Positions 1-64,000 are shown, counted from the stretch's first letter. The stretch is 64,000 bases of DNA from Candidatus Omnitrophota bacterium (GCA_029261035.1 JAJDCD010000022.1:1-64000); one strand, 5' to 3'. Translations and numbers: made by a program. The notes: generated by a model from the sequence alone, not told the origin.

Positions 1-1560
1 AATAGAAGTAGGAGAATGGGAGTTTAGATTTAAGTATCAGGGAGAAAGCGTAAAGATTGGAGATGGCACTCTTTATTGGAATGGTAAGGAATATGAAAGA
101 GAGAAGGAGAGAGTGGAGAGAAAGATAAGAGAAGCGTTTAAGGAGTTAGAAGAAGGAGAGGTGAGAAGAATCGGGAAAGTGAATGAGCTTATTTTATTGT
201 CTCATGGACAAATAAAGCCAAAAACACTTCCGCAACCGGATGGAGGAATTCGTGAGAAGCAAATGAGTTTTGGAGCAGGAAGAAATTTAGAATGGGTGGA
301 ATTAGAGGTAGAAAGAATAGAAGGAGGAGAATGGGAGTTGAGATTTAAGTATCAGGGAGAAAGCGGAAAGATTGGAGATGGCACGCTTTATTGGAATGGG
401 AAGTAATATGAATGAGAGAAGGAGAGACTGGAGAGAAAGATAAGAGAAGTGTTTGAAGAGTTAGAAGAAGGAGAGGAAAGAAGAATAGGGAAAGTGAATG
501 CGCTTATTTTATTGTCTGGTGGTCAAATAAAGGAAAAAACACTTCCACAACCTAATGGAGGAATTCGTCAGAAGCCAATGAGTTTTGGAGCAGTAATGAA
601 TTTAGAGTCAGTGGAATTAGAGGTAGAAAGAATAGAAGGAGGAGAATGGGAGTTGAGATTTAAGTATCAGGGAGAAGGGGGAAAGGTTGGAGAGAGCAAG
701 CTTTATTGGAATGGGAAGAAATATGAAAGAGAGAAGGCGAGAGTGGAGAGAAAGATAAGAGAAGTGTTTGAAGAGTTAGAAGAAGGAGAGCAAACAAGAA
801 TAGGGAAAGTGAATGAGCTTATTATATTGTCTGGTGGACAAATAAAGAAAAAAACACTTCCACAACCTAATGGAGGAGTTCGTGAGAAGAAAATGAATTT
901 TGGGGCAGGAAAGAATTTAGAGTCAGTGGAATTAGAGGTAGAAAGACTAGAAGGGGGAGAATGGGAGTTGAGGTTTAAGTATCAGGGAGAAAGCGGAAAT
1001 GTTGGAGAGAGCAAGCTTTATTGGAATGGGAAGGAATATGAAGGAGAGAAGGAGAGAATGGAGAGAAAGATAAGAGAAGTGTTTAAGGAGTTAGAAGAAG
1101 GAGAGGAAAGAAGAATAGGGAAAGTGAATGAGCTTATTAACTTGTCTCTAGGACAAATAAAGGCAAAAACACTTCCGCAACCGGATGGAGGAATTCGTGA
1201 GAAGGGAATGAGTTTTGGAGCGGTAAATAATTTAGAGTGGGTGGAATTAGAGGTAGAAAGAATAGAAGGGGGAGAATGGGAGTTGAGATTTAAGTATCAG
1301 GGAGAAGGGGGAAAGGTTGGAGAGAGCACGCTTTATTGGAATGGGAAGAAATATGAAGGAGAGAAGGAGAGAGTGGAGAGAAAGATAAGAGAAGTGTTTA
1401 AGGAGTTAGAAGAAGGAGAGGAAAGAAGAATCGGGAAAGTGAATGAGCTTATTATATTGTCTAGTGGACAAATAAAGGTAAAAACACTTCCACAACCGGA
1501 TGGAGGAGTTCGTGAGAAGTTAATGAGTTTTGGAGCAGGAAAGAATTTAGAAGAAGTTGA
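1..1560 (+). repeat. 315-bp near-identical tandem repeat array
   Basis: The same landmark (the T of the tct codon before GGACAAATAAAG) falls at 200, 515, 830, 1145 and 1460, giving an exact 315-bp (105-codon) period. The copies differ by scattered substitutions only, with no indels, so the array amplified recently or is kept uniform by recombination. The coding strand is very purine-rich (long GAGAAGGAGAGA-type runs). Downstream copies in the same ORF keep the period only approximately and are highly diverged. Confidence 0.9.
2..406 (+). CDS. 3' fragment of giant tandem-repeat protein, cut by in-frame stops
   Basis: The frame is open from base 2 and is the same frame as the large ORF downstream, so this is the tail of a gene that begins outside the window. 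It encodes the end of one ~105-residue repeat and one complete repeat with the FPQPDG-like (here LPQPDG) and LYWNG landmarks. It stops at TAA 404-406, with a second in-frame stop, TGA, at 413-415. The matching positions in the next copies read GAA and GGA, so both stops look like G-to-T changes in a repeat unit that was once read through. It could be a decayed junction in one giant gene or the real end of a separate paralogue. I do not recognise the repeat, and function is unknown. Confidence 0.6.
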   Translation: MEVGEWEFRFKYQGESVKIGDGTLYWNGKEYEREKERVERKIREAFKELEEGEVRRIGKVNELILLSHGQIKPKTLPQPDGGIREKQMSFGAGRNLEWVELEVERIEGGEWELRFKYQGESGKIGDGTLYWNGK

Positions 1561-4500
1561 TCTCACTATCCATAACGAAAACGGGAAATGGGTTTTAGAA
1601 TTTAGATACAAAAAAGAAGGGGAAGAAGACTTTCGCCCCGAACCTGTCCGCCTTCAATGGAACCCTGAAACAGAAGAATATGAACGTTACGTAAAAGACA
1701 CCCGACAAGAAGTATACGAATTTGATCCGGAAGCGGAAGGGTTTAGTTTGGGAGAGGACAGAGGTCAGAAGACTGAAGTCGGAAGCCCAAACACCACCCC
1801 ACACCAAGAAGGTGTAGGGCAGGCAAGGGTGCATGGCAAGCAGAATATTGTCACCCCCGACTTGATCGATGGATCCCTGCCTACCGGTAGGCAGGCAGAG
1901 TCTTCAGATAAACAGGATTCCCGCTTTCGCGGGAATGACAGTGCTAAAAGCCAAGAGCCAAAAACTATTGATCCATCGACAGCTCAGAGCTTGGGCGTAC
2001 AGATGAATAAAGAGATTCAAATGATGAAAATATCAAAAGTATTTCAGGAATTACGAGACGGTGAAAGTAGGGATGTTGGAGATATTAGCCTTCTCATTAA
2101 TAGGACTTCGGGACAATTAAAGAAAAATATTTTCCCACTTCCCAATGGAAAGAAGGTAGCTACACATCAGAATGTGGGGCTTGGAAAAAAATTGGAAGAA
2201 GTTAGGATGACCATACATAAGAAGGCAGGATATTGGATTTTAGATATAGTTCGGAAGAAAGAAGGAAAAGTAAAGTTTAGAGAAGATTTAGTTCAGTTAC
2301 GATGGAGTCCTGAAACAAAGCTTTATGAAGTTATAAAAGAAGAAACTATGAGTGATCAAATTTGGAAAGCATTTAGAGAACTAAAGCAAGGTCAAAGTAG
2401 AAGTTTTGATGATATAGGCTCTTTAATTTTATTTAATTCGGGACAAGTAGCGCAAACATTTCCACAACCTGATGGCATAAAGATTGGAAAAGGCAAAAGT
2501 TTTGGCGCTAAAACAGGTCTGACAAAGGTTTCCTTAACAGTAGAAAAATTAAAAGGTGAGTATTGGAAGCTGACAATGCCTTATGTCAAGAAAGATGGTA
2601 GTAAAGGTGTTGGAATGCTTTATTGGAATGGAAGAGAATATGAAACAGAAAAGGAAAGAGTATCAAGAAAGATTTTAAAATCTTATTCACAGCTGCAAGT
2701 TGGAGAAGTAACTAGGATTGGGGATGTAAGTGCTCTTATAAATTTATCTCTAGGGAGTCTCTTGAAAGCATTTCCTCAACCGGACGGAGCAATAATTTCA
2801 AATAGTAAAGGTTTTGGAATGAAAACGGATTTAGTGAAAGTTTTACTGGGTATTAAGAGGTTGAATGAAGTGGAATGGGAGCTGAGTTTCAATTATCTAA
2901 CTAAAAATGGTGAAAGTGGGCAAGCGAAACTTTATTGGAATGGAAGTGAATATGAATCAGAGAAAGAGCATACTTCCAGAAAAATCAGAGAAGCTTACGA
3001 AGGACTTATGGTAGGAGAGGAAAGGCATTTTGAAAATATCAATTCGCTTATTCAATTATCAGGAGGTTCCTTGTTGGGTATTTTTCCTCAGCCTAACGGA
3101 ACGAATATTGGGAAATATAAAGCGTTGCAATCGGGAGGAGGTTTAGAAAAGGTTGATTTAGCTTTAAGAAAGCTGACAAATAGGGAGTGGGAGCTAAATT
3201 TTAATTATAAAAAACATAGTGGAGAAATTGGGCAGAGTCAGCTTTACTGGAGCGGAACAGCTTTTGAAACAAAACAAGAAGGAGTTGTCCGTAAGATTTT
3301 AGAGGCGTTTCAGGATCTTAATGAAGAAGAGTCTTTAGATATAGGAGATGTGGGCCCAGTGCTTAATTTAACCGCAGGAAGCTTGAGCTCTAGATTTCCT
3401 CAGCCAGACGGTGATTTTCTAAGTGGAAATTTTGCAATAGGAGCTGGGAACAATTTAGAAGATGTGAGTTTGAGAATGAGTAAAATTAAGGATGAACCAT
3501 GGCAATTGGAATTTACGTATAAGCAAAAAGGCGGAAAGGAAGGAAAGGTTAATCTTTATTGGAATGGACGTACTTATGAAACTCCTAAAGAGCAAAAATA
3601 TCGAAAAATCAGTGAAGCTTTTGCTGAGCTTAAAATAGGTGAGATTGAATCCATCGGAAGGGTTGATTCGATAATCAATATGTCTAATGGACAACTTTAT
3701 ATTGGGGCACCATTTCCTGATGGAAATACGCTAAAAAAGCCAAAGGGCTTCGGGTTGGGAGGCTCCTTAGAACAGGTTTTTCTGGATGTAGAAAGAAAAG
3801 AAATGGGTGGGTGGCAGTTAAAGTTTACAAGTTATCAAAAAGAACGAAAAAAGACAGAGCAAGTTCTTTATTGGAATGGAAGTGAATATGAGACTTATCA
3901 AGAAAGAACGATCCGAAAAATAAAAGAAATTTTTAAGAAATCTGGTATAGGAGAGAGGCAAGCTATTCAGGATGTAAGCAGTCTGATGAATATGACAAAA
4001 GGACAGTTGAGCGTTTTATTTCCTCAGCCAGAAGGCGGTGTTATAAACGAGTCTAAGGGGTTAAGGCTAGGCGGGACTTTAGATAGTGTGAATTTAGAGA
4101 TAATAAGATTAAATAAAACAGAGTGGAAGTTAAATTTTATTGCCCTTAAAGAGAATGGAGAGTTAAAAGAGGGGAGTCTTTATTGGAATGGAGTAGAGTA
4201 TGAAACGGAAAAGGAAAGAGTCTTAAGAAAAATTAAAGCTGTGTTTCGAGATTTGGGAGTGGGTGAAGGGGTAAATGTAGTGGATGTCAGTTCGCTTGTC
4301 TCTATGACTTATGGAGACTTGCAATCATCGTTTCCTCAACCAGATATGAAGCCTGTTGGCAGGGTTTTGAGCTTAGGCGGAGTACAGAATTTAAAGCAAA
4401 TCGATTTAAAAATAAAAAAATTAGATGAACAAAGTTGGGAGTTGACCTTTGAGTACGTGAATGAATTTGATGTTGTTGGTGAAAGTGTATTGTTGTGGAA

Positions 4501-7354
4501 CGGAAGTTTTTATGATGTTACTAAAAAACAAGAATCAGCTGTTGTTTTGTCCACACAAGGGCAAGTAAAAAGAACGGAAATAAGTAAAGAACTAAGTAAT
4601 TTCTTTAAAAACATGAATGAAGACGAAAGTAGAGACGTGGGAAATGTTAATTATTTAATAAATATGGATTCGGGACGATTGGCAAGCATATTTCCTCAAC
4701 CTGATGGTAAATCAATTAATGCTTCAAAAAATTTAGTTTCTGGAATTAGATTGAAGGACGTTGTTTTGAGGTTAACGAAATTACCTAACCAAGAGTGGGA
4801 ACTTAATTTTAATTATGTGGACCGCAAAGGGCGAAAGGGGGAAGTTAAACTCTATTGGAATGGAGAAATATATCAAACGGTTAAAGAAAGAAAAGCCGAA
4901 ATGATTAGAAAAGCATTTCGCCGATTGAGCGAAGGAGAGAGTGAAGTTATTGCAGACATTAATCAATTAGTTTCTTTGTCTTATGGGGCTCTTTCTGAAT
5001 TGTTTCCTCAGCCTGATGAAACGAAGTTGCAGAAACGAATACATTTAGGTGTTCGAAAAGGTTTGAAACAAGTTGGTTTAGAAGTTACAAAATTGGAGGG
5101 TGAAGAGTGGTTATTAATCTTTGATTACAAACAAAATGATGGGGTGAAAGATAAGGTAGAAATTTATTGGAATGGAAACGAGTATGAAAGCAAGAAGCAA
5201 AGAGTTGCTAGAAAGGTTGTTCAAGCATATTCAGAATTAAGAGAAGGGGAAGGGATGCAAATTGGAAATGTAAACCCTTTAATATTGCTATCCGGTGGCG
5301 CTTTACTGCGAATTTTCCCAAGGCCTGATGGAAGTAAAATAGAAAAAGAAACAGGTTTTGGAGTTGGGAATGACTTAACAGAGGTTGAATTGGAGATTGT
5401 GAGACTTCAGTATGGAGAGTGGAAATTTAATTTTAAATACAAGAGTAAAACAGTTTCTGAAGGAGAAGCGAACCTTTATTGGAATGGAGAAGAGTTTGAA
5501 ACAGAGGATGAAAGGTTACGAAGAGTTGTTAGCGAAGTTTTTCAAAAAATTAAAGTGGGTGAGATTGTAAAGGTAGGAAATATTAATTCTTTGGTTACTC
5601 TTTCTATAGCCCAGTTAGTAGGCACTTTTCCTACCCCTGACGGAGGGGTTTTGGGATATAGAATGAGTTTCGGAGCAAAAGCAAAATTAAGAGATGTTGA
5701 TTTGGAAATAAGGAAGTCGGGAGAGAGAGTCTATGAGTTAGTTTTTAATTTTGAACAACAGGATGGGGAGAAAGGATCCACTCTTTTGTATTGGGATGGA
5801 ATAAGATATGAGACGGAAAAGCATAAAAAAATAAGAGAAATTAAAGAAGTATTTTCTAACTTAAATATGGGAGAGAGTACAGATGTTGGAGACATAACAT
5901 CTTTAATTACGCTGTATGGACCTCAGATTCGATGGTCTTTTCCTCAGCCAAATGGTAAAAATATTGGAGAACAAACAAGTTTTGGCGGAGAGAAAGGGCT
6001 TACCAAAGTAGCGCTTATTATTAAAAAAATTAACTCAGAAGAATGGCGGCTTGATTTTATTTATAAACGTAAAGAAGGGGATGAAAGAACAGCGCAAATG
6101 TATTGGAACGGAAGTAAGTATGAAAGAGAAGATCTGAGAGCGATAAGAAAAATGAAGCAGGCCTTCTTAGAATTAAAAGACGGCGAAAGTAGAGAGATTG
6201 GCAGAGTGAATAAACTTTTTCACCTATCTGCAGGACAATTAAAAAAGCGTTTTCCAACCCCTATAAACACGGTTATAGGAGAGATACAAACAATAGGTTT
6301 AGGGCACTCTGTAGAAGAAGTTAATCTCACTATCCATAACGAAAACAGAAAATGGGTCTTGGAATTCGAATACAAAAAAGAAGGAGAAGAAGGCTTTCGC
6401 CCCGAGCCCGTCCGCCTGCAATGGAATCCTGAAACAGAAAAATACGAACCCTACGTAAAAGACATCCAACAAGCAGTGTACGAATTTGATCCCGATGCAG
6501 AAGGCTTTAGTTTGGGAGAGGACAGAGGTCAGAGGACTGAAGTCGGAAGACAGAATATTGTCATCCCCGACTTGATCGGGGATCCAGTGTCTTTAAAGCA
6601 AATGGATTTCGGCCTTCGCGGGAATGACATCACTATAGATCAGGTGATACAAAAATATCCAATTGAAATTCAAAGGGCATTGCAGTTAGCGTTTTTAATG
6701 AAACAGTTAAAAGAAGAAGGTGTTTCTAAGGATTCTTTTTTGAGTTCTGTGAATTTAGTTTCAAGTCAGAGAGCTAATGTGCAAACAACAAAGCTGGTTT
6801 ATCAAATTATGGATTTTGTGACATTTAGAGATCGATTAAAAAATTTAGAGGGGTTGGTTGGGTTTATGGAAGAAGGTGGTTTGTTAGAAGTGGCTTTTTC
6901 TTCTGATCAAAAACAAGAGGTGATGCAGTTGTTGGGAAGGAAAAGTGTGATACCTCAGAAATATCGTTATCTTTTTCAAAATGCTTTTAAACAGTATGGA
7001 GATGTTGGAAAGCAAAAGTTTGACGGCAGTGTTCGGGTAATACTGATGAATCAAGAAAATATAGACAAGGTTCCTGGGAAAATTGCCAAAGAATTTTTAA
7101 GTACTTCTTATGAGTCTCGGTACTTAAAATTTGTTCCTGGAGCAAGTGAGAAGCTTTCTGTGTGGGCGATTCAGGCGGCGCAACTAAGAGAAGAAGCAGG
7201 GGATGCTTTTCAGGAACAATTCACTTATAATGTGTTAGGTTTTTATTCTGAAGGTGATGTGGTTCGATTTAAGGATGGGAAATTAATCTTTAATTTAGTT
7301 GAGATATTGACGTTAAATTATGAAGCTCAACAGCAGGTGTTGATTGCGGCTTAG
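449..7354 (+). CDS. Giant protein of about 18 copies of an unrecognised ~105-residue repeat
   Basis: This 2301-residue ORF is built almost entirely of one domain repeated about 18 times. Each unit begins RKI..xF..L..GE, continues through IG.VN.LI.LS.GQL, FPQPDG, SFG and a V.L.I.R...EW.L.F.Y strand, and ends LYWNG..YE..KER. Units 1-4 are nearly identical, while units 5-18 share only the landmarks. Units 4 and 18 end in an almost identical alternative module (TIHNENGKW ... EGFSLGEDRG), each followed by a palindromic element read in frame. The last ~230 residues are a different helical region with no family I can name. No signal peptide or membrane segment is visible, but the true N-terminus may lie upstream of the stops at 404-415. 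The GTG start at 449 is only the first start codon after those stops and has no convincing ribosome site. The function may be structural or adhesive; that is a guess. Confidence 0.7.
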   Translation: MFEELEEGEERRIGKVNALILLSGGQIKEKTLPQPNGGIRQKPMSFGAVMNLESVELEVERIEGGEWELRFKYQGEGGKVGESKLYWNGKKYEREKARVERKIREVFEELEEGEQTRIGKVNELIILSGGQIKKKTLPQPNGGVREKKMNFGAGKNLESVELEVERLEGGEWELRFKYQGESGNVGESKLYWNGKEYEGEKERMERKIREVFKELEEGEERRIGKVNELINLSLGQIKAKTLPQPDGGIREKGMSFGAVNNLEWVELEVERIEGGEWELRFKYQGEGGKVGESTLYWNGKKYEGEKERVERKIREVFKELEEGEERRIGKVNELIILSSGQIKVKTLPQPDGGVREKLMSFGAGKNLEEVDLTIHNENGKWVLEFRYKKEGEEDFRPEPVRLQWNPETEEYERYVKDTRQEVYEFDPEAEGFSLGEDRGQKTEVGSPNTTPHQEGVGQARVHGKQNIVTPDLIDGSLPTGRQAESSDKQDSRFRGNDSAKSQEPKTIDPSTAQSLGVQMNKEIQMMKISKVFQELRDGESRDVGDISLLINRTSGQLKKNIFPLPNGKKVATHQNVGLGKKLEEVRMTIHKKAGYWILDIVRKKEGKVKFREDLVQLRWSPETKLYEVIKEETMSDQIWKAFRELKQGQSRSFDDIGSLILFNSGQVAQTFPQPDGIKIGKGKSFGAKTGLTKVSLTVEKLKGEYWKLTMPYVKKDGSKGVGMLYWNGREYETEKERVSRKILKSYSQLQVGEVTRIGDVSALINLSLGSLLKAFPQPDGAIISNSKGFGMKTDLVKVLLGIKRLNEVEWELSFNYLTKNGESGQAKLYWNGSEYESEKEHTSRKIREAYEGLMVGEERHFENINSLIQLSGGSLLGIFPQPNGTNIGKYKALQSGGGLEKVDLALRKLTNREWELNFNYKKHSGEIGQSQLYWSGTAFETKQEGVVRKILEAFQDLNEEESLDIGDVGPVLNLTAGSLSSRFPQPDGDFLSGNFAIGAGNNLEDVSLRMSKIKDEPWQLEFTYKQKGGKEGKVNLYWNGRTYETPKEQKYRKISEAFAELKIGEIESIGRVDSIINMSNGQLYIGAPFPDGNTLKKPKGFGLGGSLEQVFLDVERKEMGGWQLKFTSYQKERKKTEQVLYWNGSEYETYQERTIRKIKEIFKKSGIGERQAIQDVSSLMNMTKGQLSVLFPQPEGGVINESKGLRLGGTLDSVNLEIIRLNKTEWKLNFIALKENGELKEGSLYWNGVEYETEKERVLRKIKAVFRDLGVGEGVNVVDVSSLVSMTYGDLQSSFPQPDMKPVGRVLSLGGVQNLKQIDLKIKKLDEQSWELTFEYVNEFDVVGESVLLWNGSFYDVTKKQESAVVLSTQGQVKRTEISKELSNFFKNMNEDESRDVGNVNYLINMDSGRLASIFPQPDGKSINASKNLVSGIRLKDVVLRLTKLPNQEWELNFNYVDRKGRKGEVKLYWNGEIYQTVKERKAEMIRKAFRRLSEGESEVIADINQLVSLSYGALSELFPQPDETKLQKRIHLGVRKGLKQVGLEVTKLEGEEWLLIFDYKQNDGVKDKVEIYWNGNEYESKKQRVARKVVQAYSELREGEGMQIGNVNPLILLSGGALLRIFPRPDGSKIEKETGFGVGNDLTEVELEIVRLQYGEWKFNFKYKSKTVSEGEANLYWNGEEFETEDERLRRVVSEVFQKIKVGEIVKVGNINSLVTLSIAQLVGTFPTPDGGVLGYRMSFGAKAKLRDVDLEIRKSGERVYELVFNFEQQDGEKGSTLLYWDGIRYETEKHKKIREIKEVFSNLNMGESTDVGDITSLITLYGPQIRWSFPQPNGKNIGEQTSFGGEKGLTKVALIIKKINSEEWRLDFIYKRKEGDERTAQMYWNGSKYEREDLRAIRKMKQAFLELKDGESREIGRVNKLFHLSAGQLKKRFPTPINTVIGEIQTIGLGHSVEEVNLTIHNENRKWVLEFEYKKEGEEGFRPEPVRLQWNPETEKYEPYVKDIQQAVYEFDPDAEGFSLGEDRGQRTEVGRQNIVIPDLIGDPVSLKQMDFGLRGNDITIDQVIQKYPIEIQRALQLAFLMKQLKEEGVSKDSFLSSVNLVSSQRANVQTTKLVYQIMDFVTFRDRLKNLEGLVGFMEEGGLLEVAFSSDQKQEVMQLLGRKSVIPQKYRYLFQNAFKQYGDVGKQKFDGSVRVILMNQENIDKVPGKIAKEFLSTSYESRYLKFVPGASEKLSVWAIQAAQLREEAGDAFQEQFTYNVLGFYSEGDVVRFKDGKLIFNLVEILTLNYEAQQQVLIAA
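1846..1941 (+). repeat. Palindromic element read in frame inside the giant gene
   Basis: The stretch starts ATTGTCACCCCCGACTTGAT and ends GCTTTCGCGGGAATGACA. It is the same family as intergenic elements in this window (outer arms TGTCATcccc / ggggATGACA, inner GATCC). Here it also contains a short palindrome CTGCCTACCGGTAGGCAG. It is translated without breaking the frame, giving the peptide SRFRGND near its end. It lies in a linker between repeat units 4 and 5, so it is probably a mobile or dispersed palindrome tolerated as coding sequence. Confidence 0.75.
6557..6629 (+). repeat. Second in-frame palindromic element in the giant gene
   Basis: ATTGTCATCCCCGACTTGAT begins the element and GCGGGAATGACA ends it, with the usual CGGGGATCCAG inner hairpin. 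It gives the peptide fragments PDLIGDP and LRGND. It follows the duplicated EGFSLGEDRG module exactly as the copy at 1846 does, and separates the repeat array from the C-terminal domain. Confidence 0.75.
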
Positions 7355-54285: not shown

Positions 54286-54341
54286 TTTTTATTTACAGCC
54301 TAAATTCTCTCATTTGGGCCCGGGCCTAAATGGAAGTTTTT
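54286..54341 (+). repeat. Left copy of the RAYT-flanking repeat
   Basis: TTTTTATTTACAGCCTAAAT at the left, then CATTTGGGCCCGGGCC and TGGAAGTTTT. It matches 55021-55075 in the same orientation with few differences. The inner CATTTGGGC / GCCTAAATG can form a hairpin followed by a T-run, so it may also terminate the hemY or transposase transcript. Confidence 0.8.
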
Positions 54342-54937
54342 TAAAATAAAGAACGTTTTATGTCGGAAAGATGTTCTTGCTCTTCTTTGTGAATAGGTTG
54401 TTCATGAAACTCTTTTATGTCGGATAAGGCATATGACATGTTTTCATTAAACATTGAAAGTCCTCCTGTTGTATCTAAGTAGTTCCATTCAGGTAAAGTT
54501 TTAACGTAACTTCCGTAACTGGACCATCTATAATTTTCTGGAGATGTAACAATATTTGCTTTTACTGGATTGTTATGGATATATCGAAGTAAAACTTTTC
54601 CATAGAGGTTTTCATTTACTAATCTATATTTGTATCTTCCCTGAAATAATGGTCCTATACGCTTATATTTCGTATTAAAAAAACGTGAGTACGTTGATGT
54701 AATATGCCAGATAGCCTCACTTAAATTAGGAGATACTGTTTGGATGAACAGGTGAAAGTGATTATCCATAAGGCAGAACGCAAATAGGTTTACGTTATAC
54801 TTTTTTACACTTTCCGAGGTTGCTTTGAGAAACATTTTTCTATCATAGTCGTCAAAAAATATTTCATGCTTATTTACACCTCTATTGTATATATGATAAT
54901 AAGCCCCTGGGTATTTGATTCTAGCAAAATGAGTCAT
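54341..54937 (-). CDS. REP-associated tyrosine transposase (RAYT, Y1/HUH family)
   Basis: A 198-residue single-domain Y1 transposase. YHIYNRGVNKHEIFFDDYDR opens the fold, MDNHFHLFI gives the HUH metal-binding pair (H60, H62), and RYIHNNPVKA near residue 118 carries the nucleophilic tyrosine. Proteins of this type act on REP-like hairpins rather than being classical IS transposases. Two ~55-bp direct repeats flank it closely. It lies between hemY and miaB and is AT-rich upstream. It could be the enzyme behind one of the many palindromic families in this window. Confidence 0.88.
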   Translation of the reverse strand: MTHFARIKYPGAYYHIYNRGVNKHEIFFDDYDRKMFLKATSESVKKYNVNLFAFCLMDNHFHLFIQTVSPNLSEAIWHITSTYSRFFNTKYKRIGPLFQGRYKYRLVNENLYGKVLLRYIHNNPVKANIVTSPENYRWSSYGSYVKTLPEWNYLDTTGGLSMFNENMSYALSDIKEFHEQPIHKEEQEHLSDIKRSLF

Positions 54938-57782: not shown

Positions 57783-60700
57783 TTGAATTCAGACTCAAAA
57801 TTAATAAAAGTTTTAGCATTTTTCATCTCTTTTTATTTTACACTTTTTTCAACCTTTTCTTATGCTAAGGCAATCCCTGTAGCTCAAGTGGGTTCTTATG
57901 GGGATAATCCTTTAAGCATTTCTATTCCTTCTGAATTAGGAATACTCCGTAATAGTACCCCTATTTTTCAAAAGAAGGGTATTATTTTTCATATTCAAGA
58001 CGCGCATGGGCAATTAGAAGCTCAAGAGAATATTGAGAAATTACTCCACTACTTAAATTCTGAGCACAATGTAAATCTAATTTTTATGGAAGGAGCTCTT
58101 CAGGGAAGTGTTTCAAAAGACTTACTTCGTTTTTACTCCGAGCCAAAAGCGAATGAAAATGTTGTGGAGCAATTACTTGAAAAAGGGTTGATTGGTGGTG
58201 CTGAAAAATTCTTAGTTAATTCGGATAAAGAAACAAAAGGTTTTGGGGTAGAAAATAGTTCTCTTTATAGAGAAAATTTAGAATTATTTAGAGATGTATA
58301 TAAATATCGAAAGATCACAGATATTTTCTTAAGCCAGTTTAGAAGTCGAATTGATTTGCTCTCCACTCATTATTTCAATTCGGACTTAAGAAAGTTTGTT
58401 ATGGAGTGGTTGAAATTTTCTCGGAAAGAAAATCTTCAATACCGTTTTATTCAATTTTTAAATAAATCATCAAAAAAATATCTAAACCTTGATTTAAATA
58501 ACCCTCGAACCCAACTCCGTTACCCCCAATTAACGCGCTTCTTCACACTAAAGAAACTTGAAGAAGAGTTGAAGGGTGAGGATGCTCAAAAAGATTTAAA
58601 GGTTGAGAAAGTAAAATTTAATAATTGGCTTACTAACAAAGATATTTCTTCTGAGACTCAAAATTTATTTAAACTGTTATTAGATTTTCATTCCTTATCT
58701 TCTGTTTCGAATATTAAATTTGATATTCGAAAAACTCTCGAAATCTTTTATACTCAAGCTTCTAAGAAAGGCTTTCAATTTCAAGATTATCCTCAGTTAA
58801 CACGTGTTATAGGCAGTCTAATGTTATCTCAAGAACTTCAAGCGACGCAGTTGTTTTTAGAAGTAGAAGGTGTGTCTGAAGCTATTCTGGGAAAGTTAAC
58901 GCAATCTGAGATAGAGAAAGATTTAGTCGGTTTAATCAAAAAATACTTATCCTTAAAAAAACTTTTTGCTTTGGAATTAACGCGTGAAGATTGGAGAAAG
59001 ATAAATTTATATGGAATTCATTTAATTGCACCTGAAGAATTAGTCTCTTCTATTCATGGAACGGTTGAGTCTAAACGTATTGAAGAGTTGAAAGTAGATT
59101 TTGAAATTAAAGAAGCTTTTGAGAAAGCGACGCAATTTTATGCAGTAGCTGAAAAGAGAGAGTCTGTGATTGTTGAGAGTGTTCTCATCAATACAAAAGA
59201 GAATCAAAATGCTGTTCTGGTTACCGGAGGTTTTCACTCTGGAGGTTTGAGAGACTTGGTGGAGAAGGGAAGAAAGACTTTTATTGAGATAACGCCTAAA
59301 GTCACTCATTTAAATTCGGATCATACCTATTTAAATCAGATGTTGCTCTCTGATGTGTCTACAGTTCCGTCCCTTTCTTTGGGGAAGCTATCATTACCTC
59401 AAATTGACCGTAATTTTGGGAGTGAGTCAGGACGATATGTGTTATCACAGCTTATGCCTATTCTTTCTCGTACAGATGGGAGATCAGGAATAGCCTTTGA
59501 TGTTCATGGTATTAAACCGACGCATCGGTTGGAGCAACCTCAATTACAGACTGTAAGTGTTGCAGCCTCTTTAGGGAATAACTATCTAGAAAATGCTTTC
59601 TTTAAGTCTGCTCGTTTTGTTTCTCGAATACTGCCAACAACTTGGAAAGAAGATATTAAGAGTGTAATTTTTAGAAGGTTAGCTAAAAACCTTAAGAAGG
59701 CTATAGTGGAGTTTGCGATTCAATATGAAGATTTACATCCAGGAGCTCAAATTGATAAACCAACGAAAGAGATGCAAGAAGCTTTCTTGAAAATTGCGAG
59801 ACCCTTAGTGGAGAAGTGGTCTTCTAAACTTAAAAATAAACTTCGTTATCGTTTTCTTTTACCTCTTGTTTTGAATTACCCTGAAGGGGATGAGGAGTAC
59901 CGTAGAAATTCTATTTTTATAGATAAGGATACGGGATTTGGAATTTTTACTCATGTTTGGAAAAAGGACGGAAAAACTTTAATTCATAATCATGATGGAA
60001 CTATGGCGCTGTTGATGCCTTTTACCAATGAGATGAAAGAGGAAGTGTATCAATTGGTAGAAAAACCCAAGTCTCCGGAGTGGGATAAACAAATACATGA
60101 CTTAGAGATGATTGAAGAAAGAAAATTAGGATTGGGTACCGTTGCAAGTTTTACAAGAGGTCAACGGTCGATTCATCGAGTGAAGAACTCTTCTCCTTCG
60201 AGAGAAGGGCTTGTGATGGAGATTTACGTTTGGATGGAAAGTAATCCTCCAAAACAAGTGAATGTTCCTATTCCTGTTTGGGGAGAAGAAAAAGCACATT
60301 TTATTTTGAGAGAAGAAGCCGGTAAATTAGCAGTTCCGTTACACCAGACTTTAAAACCGCACTCGGGACAGTTGATAAGACCGGAAATGGTAGGAGTTTT
60401 TGTTGATCATTTGAAGCTGCAAATGGAAGAGTATGCGCAGAAGGGGAAGGTGTACCCCATATTTATATTTGATGGAAAACAAATTTATGTTTTTGAAGAT
60501 GTAGAGAAAGCTTTTGAGTGGTATTACGAATTAGATCCCGCAAACAGACCTGATGTTTATATTAAGCTTACAGAAGAACAAGAGTATGCTTTTCTGGATG
60601 CCTCAAATGTGAATTTCCATCAAGAATCATTAGGCTCGAGTTTGGGGTTATCTGTTACAGAAGAAGTGCAAGAGAAGGCGGAGCTCTTTCGTACTTTGAA

Positions 60701-63700
60701 AGGTGTTGGAGATGTTGAATTCATTGATGCTTTTATACAGAATGTTTACTATTCTTTACTGGACTCACCTCCAAGTGAAATAGTTGTAGACCCCGAAAAT
60801 TATCAAGAGGGCCCTTCTTTGTTTGTTGACTATCGTGAGAAATGGTTAAAACACTTTGAAGGTTATTTTGATATAGCGACTCTTCTACAAGACGCTACTC
60901 CTGAATTTATCGACTACATGAAAGCTATTTTATTAAAGATGTTTTTTGAAAGATTTCCCGAGGTGGATAATCTGCCTGTTAGAGCTATTGAAGAGTTGGT
61001 GTATGAGTTCATTCGTTTGATTACTGGAATGCCAGAAGTAATGTCTTTCTTTAAAATGCGCGCACTTAGAGTCGGGGTGCACGAATTGCCTTTGCTTCAT
61101 TTGAATAGTTCTGCTACGAGTAACGCGAGAGAGATGGGACACTATCTGATGGGTTTTGCCGCTCAAGCAAACATAGCGACCTCAGATGATTTTCGAGCTG
61201 CTGGAATAGATATGTATGAAACAGAGCAAAGAATGAAAAGAAATACTACTTTTGATGAAGATCAAAAACAGGATTTAATTGAAGAGCCCTTTGCGAAATA
61301 TGCCATGAGAATTAGAGAGGTTCAACCTAAGTTTTCGATTGATGCTCGGAATCCTCTGTTAAACCGTTTGTTAGAAAGAAATGAGGAGGATGAGATTAAA
61401 TCAAAACAAATTCTCTACTTCTTAGATAATACCATGGAATCCATTTTTGATTTAGGTCTGATCCGTTGGATGATACAAATGGGTCATCAGGTTACTTTAG
61501 TAGCAAAAGAAAAAGAAGCTGATAATGATATGACTGTTGATGATGTTAATTTGCTATTAAGTTTAGAGCAAGTAAAAGACTTTTTCAAAGACATTGATAT
61601 TCAGGAAAAGATAAAAGTAATTTCAAGCGGTTCTGCAACTAGAGGAACAAACCTCAGAAGAGCAACTCCAGTCTTGGTAGAAGCATGGCAACAAGCAGAG
61701 ATTATTATTTCAAAGGGAGAGGGGAATAGAGGAACTCTTCAAGGTGTTAATAAGGATGTGTATCACTTCGTGATGGCAAAACAAGGACATGAAACTCCTG
61801 GGATCCATCAAGGAACCATAGCTGTTGAGCATGTTTTGGCAGCAAAGAAAACAGAAGCTTCAAGCTTAGGGGTTGAGAATGTTGATGACTCGATGCAGGA
61901 ATTTATCCTCCGCTATTTAGAGCCTAAATTACCATCGCCTCAAATTGTTGCAAAGCCTAAACAGTACCGAATGACATCAAATGTGTTTTCATCTACCCAT
62001 CCAGAGATTAAGGAAAAAAGAATCGCAAATACTTTTCTCTATTTAGAGATGATGATGCAAGGGCTGTCGGCAGAAACACAAGAGAAGAACAGATTGCTAC
62101 TAAAACGTTTCATGGATAGACCGGAATTGGAAGGGGTTAATTTAAGGCTCTTTTCTTTAATTGTTTATGATTTTATAAAAATTTTGACTGAAAGAAAAGA
62201 AGGTTTAAGTAATGCAAAAAAAGAAGCTTATTCTATTGTCCTAGACATTTTGCATATATCGAAACATGAGTTTGAAGGTTTGGAAAGCGCACGCGAACAA
62301 GGGGCTTTAGCTATTGATTTTGCTACGCGCGGAAATCAAACAACTTACCGTACTTTTTTAGAAATATCTCAAGGATCTATTCCAACGATAGGTTATCGTG
62401 CTCACATGATGGCGCTTACGAATGAACCTTTGGCTTGGTCTGTGGATGATCGTTCTGAATTGTTAGACCTCTTGTTAGAATCAGAAAAAGGAAAGGTGAA
62501 GTCGAAGCATGTACTTTATCTTCTGGATAATGTCATAGAAGATGTTTTTGATTTAATATTAGTTCAGTGGCTCCTTGAACAAGGCCACACAGTTACTCTT
62601 GTTGTTAAAGAATTAGAAGCTGGAAATGATACGACCTTTGAGGATATAAACTATTTAATTCAACAAGAAAAGGTTTTGGAGTATTTAAAACAGAGTGGAA
62701 ACGTTTTTAATATTAATATCGTTTCTAGTAAGTCTGCAACGCATGCAACAGATTTGCGTTTTGTGACAGAAGAAGATAATCTGGGGCTATATCATTCTTG
62801 GCTTGCTGCAGATGTGATTATAGCTAAGGGAGAAGGTAATCGTGGAGCTTTGCAGGGAATCCATAAAGATTTTTTTAGTTTAGTAAATTCAAAAGCAGGT
62901 TACGAAACTCCTGGAATCAAAAAAGGGACACGTGCTGTTGAAAGAAATTTAGGATACCAATCTAGAACAGCTCTCCGTTCTACTGTATTTCAACACATAA
63001 ACGGAATTGTTTTAGCTCCCGTGATGAACTCTTTAGCGAAGAGGGGTGTTTTTAATTTGTTCAGACCTTCAGAAGGTGGATATGAAGAGGTTTCGGAAAT
63101 GGGTGAAACTCGAGCTGAAACCATGGATGAAGATGAAGCGTTAGACGATGCAGGTCTTTCTAGAGTTTTAACTTTAAAACAAATCGCGGAAAGTCGATTT
63201 GCAAATCGTGCTATTGTTGAGGGTAACCCTGAGGATAATATGGGTAATCTTTATGGAGCTCTTCGGATGTTGGCTCTTCAAGGTTGGCTCACGATGGAAG
63301 GGGTCGATGAGGAGACAAAGTTTGCGTTAACAGAGCAAGGTTGGAAAGCTGTTGGCTTAGCTGAAAAAGGGACGTATATACCTTCAGTAGAAGCTGTGTC
63401 TAACTTAAATCAATTATATCGTTTAATCCGAGGTCCTCCCGCCGGCTTAGGAATGTTGTTTAGACAAAAATCTGAAAATGATGAGCAATTAAAAAGCTAT
63501 AAAAAATTAATCCAATTGAGTAAAAAGAATTGGGGTATAAGAGGTGCGAAGTACTCTATTGAAGAACGTGTTTACCAGCAAGTGGTTAAGCAGATGGACG
63601 GGATGTTGTTGGGGCCAACCTTTGTTGCTTTGGCTATGCCTTTATATGAAGAACGAGGCGAAAAAATAGAAAAAACGGGGCCCTCCTTTTTTGAGCACTT

Positions 63701-64000
63701 TGATCCAGAAACACACACGCTTGATTTAACAACGTTAAAGGGATCCTTTCACCCTGAGTTTTTAAATGAAGCATTAGGACTTTTGGAAAATAAAGGTTTT
63801 ATCGTTTTTGAAGGCACCGATAAAAAAGTTGTTCGTTTGACTGCTACGGGTCGAGTGATGGGAACGCGTCCTAGAAAAGGGAAGTCGGAGCTAGCTACAG
63901 CTTATGGTGTTACTAATTCTTATCTCGTCGGTTATCAATATGTGGATGAATGGTTGTTTGGTAATGGAGCTATTCTGGATTCAATTGAAGGGGATCGATT
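57783..64000 (+). CDS. Secreted giant multidomain protein, 5' part (at least 2072 residues)
   Basis: TTG 57783 is preceded by GGAG at 57773-57776 and begins a good signal peptide (LAFFISFYFTLFSTFSYAKA, cut after ~30); the frame stays open to the window end. Residues ~45-530 resemble the Tiki/ChaN fold (FHIQDAHGQLEAQENIEKLL, LIFMEGA, VTGGFHSGGLRDLV). Residues ~660-880 look like a cysteine-dioxygenase cupin (THVWKKDGKTLIHNHDG). Two DUF89-like phosphatase domains follow at ~1205-1370 and ~1575-1725, each with LDN..E..FD, ND.T..D and KGEGNRG.LQG. From ~1790 there is a winged-helix-like unit, then a region I do not recognise. Domain names rest on motifs read by eye. Confidence 0.8.
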   Translation, partial: MNSDSKLIKVLAFFISFYFTLFSTFSYAKAIPVAQVGSYGDNPLSISIPSELGILRNSTPIFQKKGIIFHIQDAHGQLEAQENIEKLLHYLNSEHNVNLIFMEGALQGSVSKDLLRFYSEPKANENVVEQLLEKGLIGGAEKFLVNSDKETKGFGVENSSLYRENLELFRDVYKYRKITDIFLSQFRSRIDLLSTHYFNSDLRKFVMEWLKFSRKENLQYRFIQFLNKSSKKYLNLDLNNPRTQLRYPQLTRFFTLKKLEEELKGEDAQKDLKVEKVKFNNWLTNKDISSETQNLFKLLLDFHSLSSVSNIKFDIRKTLEIFYTQASKKGFQFQDYPQLTRVIGSLMLSQELQATQLFLEVEGVSEAILGKLTQSEIEKDLVGLIKKYLSLKKLFALELTREDWRKINLYGIHLIAPEELVSSIHGTVESKRIEELKVDFEIKEAFEKATQFYAVAEKRESVIVESVLINTKENQNAVLVTGGFHSGGLRDLVEKGRKTFIEITPKVTHLNSDHTYLNQMLLSDVSTVPSLSLGKLSLPQIDRNFGSESGRYVLSQLMPILSRTDGRSGIAFDVHGIKPTHRLEQPQLQTVSVAASLGNNYLENAFFKSARFVSRILPTTWKEDIKSVIFRRLAKNLKKAIVEFAIQYEDLHPGAQIDKPTKEMQEAFLKIARPLVEKWSSKLKNKLRYRFLLPLVLNYPEGDEEYRRNSIFIDKDTGFGIFTHVWKKDGKTLIHNHDGTMALLMPFTNEMKEEVYQLVEKPKSPEWDKQIHDLEMIEERKLGLGTVASFTRGQRSIHRVKNSSPSREGLVMEIYVWMESNPPKQVNVPIPVWGEEKAHFILREEAGKLAVPLHQTLKPHSGQLIRPEMVGVFVDHLKLQMEEYAQKGKVYPIFIFDGKQIYVFEDVEKAFEWYYELDPANRPDVYIKLTEEQEYAFLDASNVNFHQESLGSSLGLSVTEEVQEKAELFRTLKGVGDVEFIDAFIQNVYYSLLDSPPSEIVVDPENYQEGPSLFVDYREKWLKHFEGYFDIATLLQDATPEFIDYMKAILLKMFFERFPEVDNLPVRAIEELVYEFIRLITGMPEVMSFFKMRALRVGVHELPLLHLNSSATSNAREMGHYLMGFAAQANIATSDDFRAAGIDMYETEQRMKRNTTFDEDQKQDLIEEPFAKYAMRIREVQPKFSIDARNPLLNRLLERNEEDEIKSKQILYFLDNTMESIFDLGLIRWMIQMGHQVTLVAKEKEADNDMTVDDVNLLLSLEQVKDFFKDIDIQEKIKVISSGSATRGTNLRRATPVLVEAWQQAEIIISKGEGNRGTLQGVNKDVYHFVMAKQGHETPGIHQGTIAVEHVLAAKKTEASSLGVENVDDSMQEFILRYLEPKLPSPQIVAKPKQYRMTSNVFSSTHPEIKEKRIANTFLYLEMMMQGLSAETQEKNRLLLKRFMDRPELEGVNLRLFSLIVYDFIKILTERKEGLSNAKKEAYSIVLDILHISKHEFEGLESAREQGALAIDFATRGNQTTYRTFLEISQGSIPTIGYRAHMMALTNEPLAWSVDDRSELLDLLLESEKGKVKSKHVLYLLDNVIEDVFDLILVQWLLEQGHTVTLVVKELEAGNDTTFEDINYLIQQEKVLEYLKQSGNVFNINIVSSKSATHATDLRFVTEEDNLGLYHSWLAADVIIAKGEGNRGALQGIHKDFFSLVNSKAGYETPGIKKGTRAVERNLGYQSRTALRSTVFQHINGIVLAPVMNSLAKRGVFNLFRPSEGGYEEVSEMGETRAETMDEDEALDDAGLSRVLTLKQIAESRFANRAIVEGNPEDNMGNLYGALRMLALQGWLTMEGVDEETKFALTEQGWKAVGLAEKGTYIPSVEAVSNLNQLYRLIRGPPAGLGMLFRQKSENDEQLKSYKKLIQLSKKNWGIRGAKYSIEERVYQQVVKQMDGMLLGPTFVALAMPLYEERGEKIEKTGPSFFEHFDPETHTLDLTTLKGSFHPEFLNEALGLLENKGFIVFEGTDKKVVRLTATGRVMGTRPRKGKSELATAYGVTNSYLVGYQYVDEWLFGNGAILDSIEGDR

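Follow-up and report, generated by a model that had tools for sequence, protein, structure and literature searches.

The window analysed here, a 64,000-nucleotide stretch from a Candidatus Omnitrophota bacterium (GCA_029261035.1 JAJDCD010000022.1:1-64000), ends within a giant gene on the plus strand (57783-64000), which raises the question of what kind of product such a gene encodes. The original prediction saw in it an exported giant protein with a set of domains known from no described protein. We found about 45 paralogous giants in this genome, the gene among them, and the family extends across the Omnitrophota. Its product of 3,320 residues is probably a string of separable modules and not a single multifunctional enzyme. 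Overall, we think it rather probable that the giants are exported polyproteins, which are cut at a short recurring motif by a lineage-matched protease, possibly their own TIKI-like head.

A family of giants with a common head

The gene starts with TTG at 57783, with a GGAG Shine-Dalgarno ribosome-binding site (GGAGACTCAA) 6 nt upstream, and its frame crosses the end of the window and stops at 67745 on the same contig of 87,241 bases (L003:784-10746). What had been described as a TTG-started frame of at least 2072 residues turned out to be 3,320 residues long, with no stop between 57783 and 67745. The rest of the gene, which had been called for earlier, contains most of the methyltransferase and the helix-turn-helix part described below. 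Residues 1-30 (57783-57872, plus strand) form a Sec signal peptide (KLIKVLAFFISFYFTLFSTFSYAKA) with a hydrophobic region followed by A-K-A, in agreement with the signal peptide proposed before, and a similar segment opens the other family members. Head and cargo of the protein contain no cysteine.

With the head alone as query, the genome of this uncultured bacterium (26 contigs, 2.7 Mb) yielded 45 open frames, which are 503 to 16,199 amino acids long and have no internal stops. Together they amount to 139,939 amino acids, which is about 15% of the genome, and each begins with a hydrophobic signal segment and an IQDAH...GGFH head. Because the 45 heads aligned together were too diverse to scan a larger collection, 12 of them were used on about 85,000 species genomes; the best 80 of 288 confirmed hits all carry the title Omnitrophota or Omnitrophica. 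Within the phylum, 44 of 58 genomes encode the head. All 26 sampled genomes of the window's order have 5 to 37 head matches, while elsewhere the number is 0 to 7, with one genome reaching 31, and open frames are as long as 24,618 amino acids. The C-terminus is conserved as well: all 41 complete giants of the window's genome end in alanine, 33 of them in Ala-Ala, and most complete giants of the other genomes in the set do likewise. Some giants elsewhere in the phylum (L167, L168, L172, L173) have a different conserved end (e.g. PKIRPVDMAEAVEAYKAAQAALKSL).

The head module proper comprises residues 31-530 (57873-59372, plus strand), and its AlphaFold model has a pLDDT of 90.7 and a pTM of 0.88. 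When the model was compared with known structures by VIA-align, EreC (Z 9.1; 3.8 A over 157 amino acids), HopBA1 (8.6), ChaN (8.3) and BcR135 (8.1-8.3) were all among the top seven matches; these are members of the TIKI superfamily (PMC6254334) or of the Ere family. An unrelated mitochondrial protein, a Tetrahymena complex IV subunit, also reached Z 9.2, and since VIA-align warns about helical models, the fold match is not conclusive by itself. Foldseek gave weak E-values only, PDB sequences searched with a profile of the head yielded no match, and a Pfam scan of the head from the window returned no ChaN, TraB or other Pfam match. Among the 45 heads, six matched ChaN (best 0.0051) and two TraB (0.083). 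The catalytic residues strengthen the assignment beyond the fold: H75, E103, R459 and H485 are invariant in the 45 paralogues and in 61 aligned homologues. They agree with the 2His/2Glu active site and conserved basic residue of the superfamily, except that the second acid, two positions before H75, is aspartate, in 39 of the 45 paralogues, and is not invariant. The fold and the His/Glu/His/Arg set are shared with the superfamily, which includes Tiki, TraB, EreA/EreC, BcR135, ChaN, HopBA1 and RRSP, and the spacing of 28 between H75 and E103 is the same as between H85 and E113 of BcR135 (PMC6254334). Unlike the superfamily members, the head carries a helical insertion of about 300 residues between the halves of its core and is fused to giant strings of modules. 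The model thus has the core beta-sheet fold of the TIKI superfamily, as the Tiki-like domain of the original prediction had implied, and the head is a putative hydrolase, for which protease or esterase activity would be expected.

Modules between motifs

Behind the head, the protein alternates between modules and short junctions of the type [AG]xSLG. The first junction, AASLG at residues 594-598 (59562-59576, plus strand, as are all features of this protein), is recognised by its enrichment in the family and is followed by a cupin module (residues 599-950, 59577-60632). This module contains HNHDG and IHRVKN, from which the HxH...HR pattern of the cysteine dioxygenase (CDO) type can be read. 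The CDO_I profile scored 18.5 bits at a cut-off of 23 (E 0.0015), and the comparison with the PDB gave no match. Of the proposed thiol dioxygenase or relative, the HNHDG motif stands; a CDO-like identity of the module is plausible but weak.

GSSLG (residues 951-955, 60633-60647) leads to the first of two ARMT1/DUF89-like modules (residues 956-1358, 60648-61856), which matches PF01937 with an E-value of 3.4e-24 and the PDB entry 2g8l with 4.4e-7. After ASSLG (residues 1359-1363, 61857-61871) follows the second copy (residues 1364-1725, 61872-62957; PF01937 5.2e-20); scored together, the two reach 1.1e-42. By reading, the metal and catalytic motifs DN..E..D, ND..D and KG.GN are intact in both, the two sets being about 370 residues apart. 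Profile and motifs alike place both modules among the ARMT1/DUF89 damage-control phosphatases, as had been proposed for this pair of domains.

From 62973 to the window end at 64000, and further to residue 2404 (position 64994), extends an AprA-like region with AprA_N, a winged helix and an MT2-like methyltransferase. AprA_N (2.2e-9; 37.8 bits) and Methyltransf_36 (8.6e-34; 117.4 bits) both exceed their cut-off of 27 bits, as expected of an AprA-type methyltransferase, and the WH_AprA match is under its cut-off. Past the window, junctions recur at residues 2405, 2674 and 3065. They delimit a module without match, a helix-turn-helix module or array (residues 2679-3064) and the family tail (residues 3070-3320), which ends in QIAQAA.

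Comparison with orthologues demonstrates that these units are gained and lost from motif to motif. An orthologue in a genome of the same family (G028, L164) has the order head-AASLG-ARMT1-AASLG-AprA-AASLG. Relative to it, the protein of the window carries two additions: the CDO-like module, which is absent from G028 and is inserted precisely from one motif to the next, and another ARMT1 module, likewise bounded by motifs. The ASSLG at 1359-1363 aligns with an AASLG of G028, and the protein of the window has lost the AASLG that separates ARMT1 from AprA. In a second pair, C21_131 (L036) and G042 (L165), a UDPGP-containing module is inserted from motif to motif and the alignment blocks end at motifs, so that the alignments of orthologues start and stop there. 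Among 47 searched genomes of the order, the pair of ARMT1 and AprA modules occurs, besides the window's genome, only in one genome of the same family. A phosphoglucomutase module was found in both motif lineages described below, AxSLG and RSExR (L036, L165, L166).

Pfam matches in 19 further giants indicate a broad range of cargo: phosphoenolpyruvate (PEP) synthase-like pieces, NUDIX, DUF218, UDP-glucose dehydrogenase (UGDH), macro domain, histidine phosphatase, rRNA-methylase-like, phosphoglucomutase, UDPGP, exonuclease, PAS-histidine kinase-receiver, LRR and TPR. One additional giant contains beta-propellers, and many cargo stretches have no Pfam match.

Two more giants were noticed. At 416-7351 (plus strand) the window holds the C-terminal part of one of the same kind, with 2,312 amino acids, no cysteine, tandem repeats of about 105 amino acids and the end QQQVLIAA. 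Its repeats match a head-bearing frame running off the end of contig C26, and one gene may be split there by an assembly break. Downstream, a haemagglutinin-like repetitive giant (L004:3-11240, minus strand, into L003:18224-19000) has more than 3,746 amino acids, is incomplete at a contig end and has no cysteine. A REP-type (Y1) transposase-like gene, judged by sequence, is located near the giant gene at 54341-54937 (minus strand).

The junction motif, cysteine content and internal signals

The motif [AG]xSLG occurs 209 times in the 139,939 amino acids of the giants and five times in the 16,452 amino acids of the other frames of the window; the haemagglutinin-like giant has none in 3,746 amino acids. 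For A[AS]SLG, 81 copies were seen in the giants where local shuffles gave 0.8. As expected of a processed polyprotein, the motif is excluded from domains, with none of 57 inside a Pfam domain and 10.2 expected. The first copy after the head is found at residue 511-787 in 42 of 45 giants, and copies have a median spacing of 416 residues. The flanks are linker-like, with few bulky hydrophobic residues and rich in E, S and T, and they have fully diverged, while the motif itself is conserved.

The codons give further information. At the A, L and G positions of the motif, codons are used as in the genome at large, which shows that selection acts on the protein. In 65 of 81 copies the serine at the third position has an AGY codon, where the background is 33%; this suggests that the copies descend from one another and is a trace of the spread of linkers. 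A DNA-level repeat or recombination site behind the motif was rejected, because the codons vary as those of the genome except for this serine. Internal translation starts behind the motif are not favoured either, the frequency of methionine there being 0.013 as against 0.019 overall.

The motif changes between lineages. Most of the other Omnitrophota genomes in the set lack AxSLG and have RSExR instead: JAKLFP has 34 copies where 0.5 are expected and JAUYMS 21 where 0.25 are expected, both without AxSLG. JACROU, on the other hand, has 17 copies of A[AS]SLG (0.15 expected) and no RSExR. A switch affecting some 200 scattered sites in each genome would be difficult to understand unless some factor recognised them. 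This bears on an alternative in which the giants are multi-domain effectors or surface proteins that are exported without being processed; the motif would then act as a flexible linker, or a chaperone or a secretion or surface-anchoring factor would bind to it. Most giants have a single N-terminal signal peptide and no other transmembrane segment, which would fit this alternative, as would the linker-like flanks and the scarcity of cysteine described next. However, the concerted change of the motif suggests a partner acting in trans, and internal lipobox signals with their cysteine kept make little sense in an intact chain. We consider this explanation unlikely.

Cysteine makes up 0.02% of the cargo and 0.08% of the heads, compared with 1.07% in 33 ordinary frames of the window and 1.18% in 288 cytosolic-like neighbours, mostly from other genomes. 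Ordinary exported proteins have 0.64%, a weak calibration with n=10. Giants of the other motif lineages contain 0.1%. Past residue 45, the giants of the window's genome retain 38 cysteines. Those in the cargo presumably include the UGDH nucleophile (GYGGSCFPKD), the glyceraldehyde-3-phosphate dehydrogenase (GAPDH) site (SCASCTTN), the PEP synthase site, conserved cysteines of the macro domain and the lipobox cysteines; in the other lineages we take the UGDH, GAPDH, deaminase, Enzyme-I-like and lipobox cysteines to be kept. As catalytic and lipobox cysteines, assigned by reading known motifs, are spared, it is probable that the cargo enzymes work and that the internal lipoprotein signals are in use.

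The near-absence of cysteine favours enzymes that leave the cytoplasm. This is relevant to a second alternative, a cytoplasmic polyprotein equivalent to a fused operon, which would be cut in the cytoplasm, with the head and self-signalled modules leaving and the remainder serving as cytosolic enzymes. The cargo dependent on ATP, NAD or nucleotides (PEP synthase, UGDH, phosphoglucomutase, UDPGP, histidine kinase) speaks for it, and so do a sensor kinase and lipoproteins that start right behind the motif, as free N-termini would. Against it, cysteine is nearly gone from all modules, unlike in the cytosolic proteins of these genomes (1.07-1.18%), and we regard this alternative as quite improbable. 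Single-copy cargo enzymes were considered as proof of a cytosolic function and are not decisive, phosphoglucomutase having a second, ordinary copy. Enzymes acting outside the inner membrane had been proposed in the original prediction; the exported head agrees with this and the cysteine content favours it for the enzymes.

Signal peptides inside the giants also point to cutting. Internal lipoprotein-type signals were found four times in giants of the window's genome and twice in others, and all six lie within 18 amino acids behind a motif (for example ASSLG-KRRFGFGLLSLSLLTVVCLTSC and RSELR-GKFAKSIILGIIALAAGC). Such motif-proximal zones cover about 6% of the sequence; the product of the coverages, about 3.5e-8, is only a guide, since some examples were known before the scan. 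Tat-like internal signals occur in L138, L121 and L087, the Pfam TAT model giving 0.002 on L087, under the cut-off, and a histidine kinase starts behind AASLG, oriented as with a free N-terminus.

Could these signals be debris of gene fusion, the giants having captured whole genes with their start regions, and motif and signals alike being functionless relics? Relic-like methionines precede some of the internal Tat-like signals, and the biased serine codons would reflect copied linkers. Yet cysteine has been purged save at lipobox, catalytic and few other sites, so that the internal signals seem selectively kept, and the motif is conserved between fully diverged flanks. Such an origin without function appears very improbable.

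Proposed exported polyproteins and their meaning

In the reading that we prefer, the giant gene would be one of a large family of genes for modular precursors. Each precursor has a hydrolase head of the TIKI superfamily, which is exported, followed by independent modules in variable number and order and by a tail with alanine at its end. A lineage-matched protease acting in trans would recognise the motif in the linkers ([AG]xSLG in this family, RSExR in related ones) as a processing site, and one open reading frame (ORF) would yield many separate proteins. The head itself is a candidate for this protease, as its superfamily includes a sequence-specific endopeptidase, RRSP (PMC6254334). We infer that most modules are exported out of the cytoplasm, where they may serve the interaction with other cells; ATP- or NAD-dependent enzymes could then work only inside another cell. 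A predatory or scavenging role is speculation.

Several points weigh against this proposal. Both the cleavage and the identity of the protease are inferences. The motifs may instead be sites of binding, or else linkers that spread together with the modules; the AGY serines point to their common ancestry. The purge of cysteine argues for export of the whole chain and the internal signals for cutting before export, which cannot both simply hold for all modules. The signal-peptide scan was home-made, and some examples from the window's genome were known before it ran. Moreover, nine frames with the head from other classes or orders have no RSExR, a single AxSLG at chance level and mostly other ends, and hence the head is not dependent on the motif.

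Polyproteins are a viral and occasionally a eukaryotic device, in which one ORF gives several independent proteins, sometimes with internal signal peptides at the new N-termini. The giants, as putative polyproteins, differ in that they are encoded on a bacterial chromosome and take up about 15% of the genome. MARTX-type autoprocessing proteins are alike in their exported chain, several effector domains and proteolytic release (general knowledge and PMC6254334). RTX repeats and a cysteine protease domain were not noted in the giants, which differ further in their metabolic-enzyme modules and in about 45 copies per genome; the likeness concerns the way of working and not membership.

Giant ORFs of Omnitrophota were published in 2023, with a predatory or symbiotic role proposed and with stress on adhesins and few annotated domains (PMC10066038). 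For giant Skillet-Lipocone proteins, the domains listed include methylases, histidine kinases and enzymes of polysaccharide metabolism (PMC12419801). Phylum, very long ORFs and mixed domains are common to those reports and ours; the available parts of the two papers mention no shared TIKI-like head, lineage motif, cysteine purge, alanine end or polyprotein reading. Our literature search, preprints excluded, for bacterial or Omnitrophota polyproteins found none, and it returned no description of the shared head, the junction motif, the cysteine purge, the alanine tail or the polyprotein reading.

We regard it as evenly balanced whether an order of bacteria devotes up to a sixth of the genome to exported polyproteins, each ORF being cut at a lineage-specific motif into many enzymes and surface proteins that are cysteine-free yet catalytically intact, and with a protease and some hundreds of sites per genome that co-evolve. 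If true, the use of polyproteins for a sixth of a genome would be a new organisation of gene expression in a bacterial lineage. The long-puzzling giant ORFs of Omnitrophota, too, would gain a concrete explanation, and their modules could be delimited, annotated and expressed singly. The purge of cysteine that spares catalytic and lipobox residues is a striking natural experiment in itself, and the switch of the motif from lineage to lineage brings the matching protease within reach of a search.

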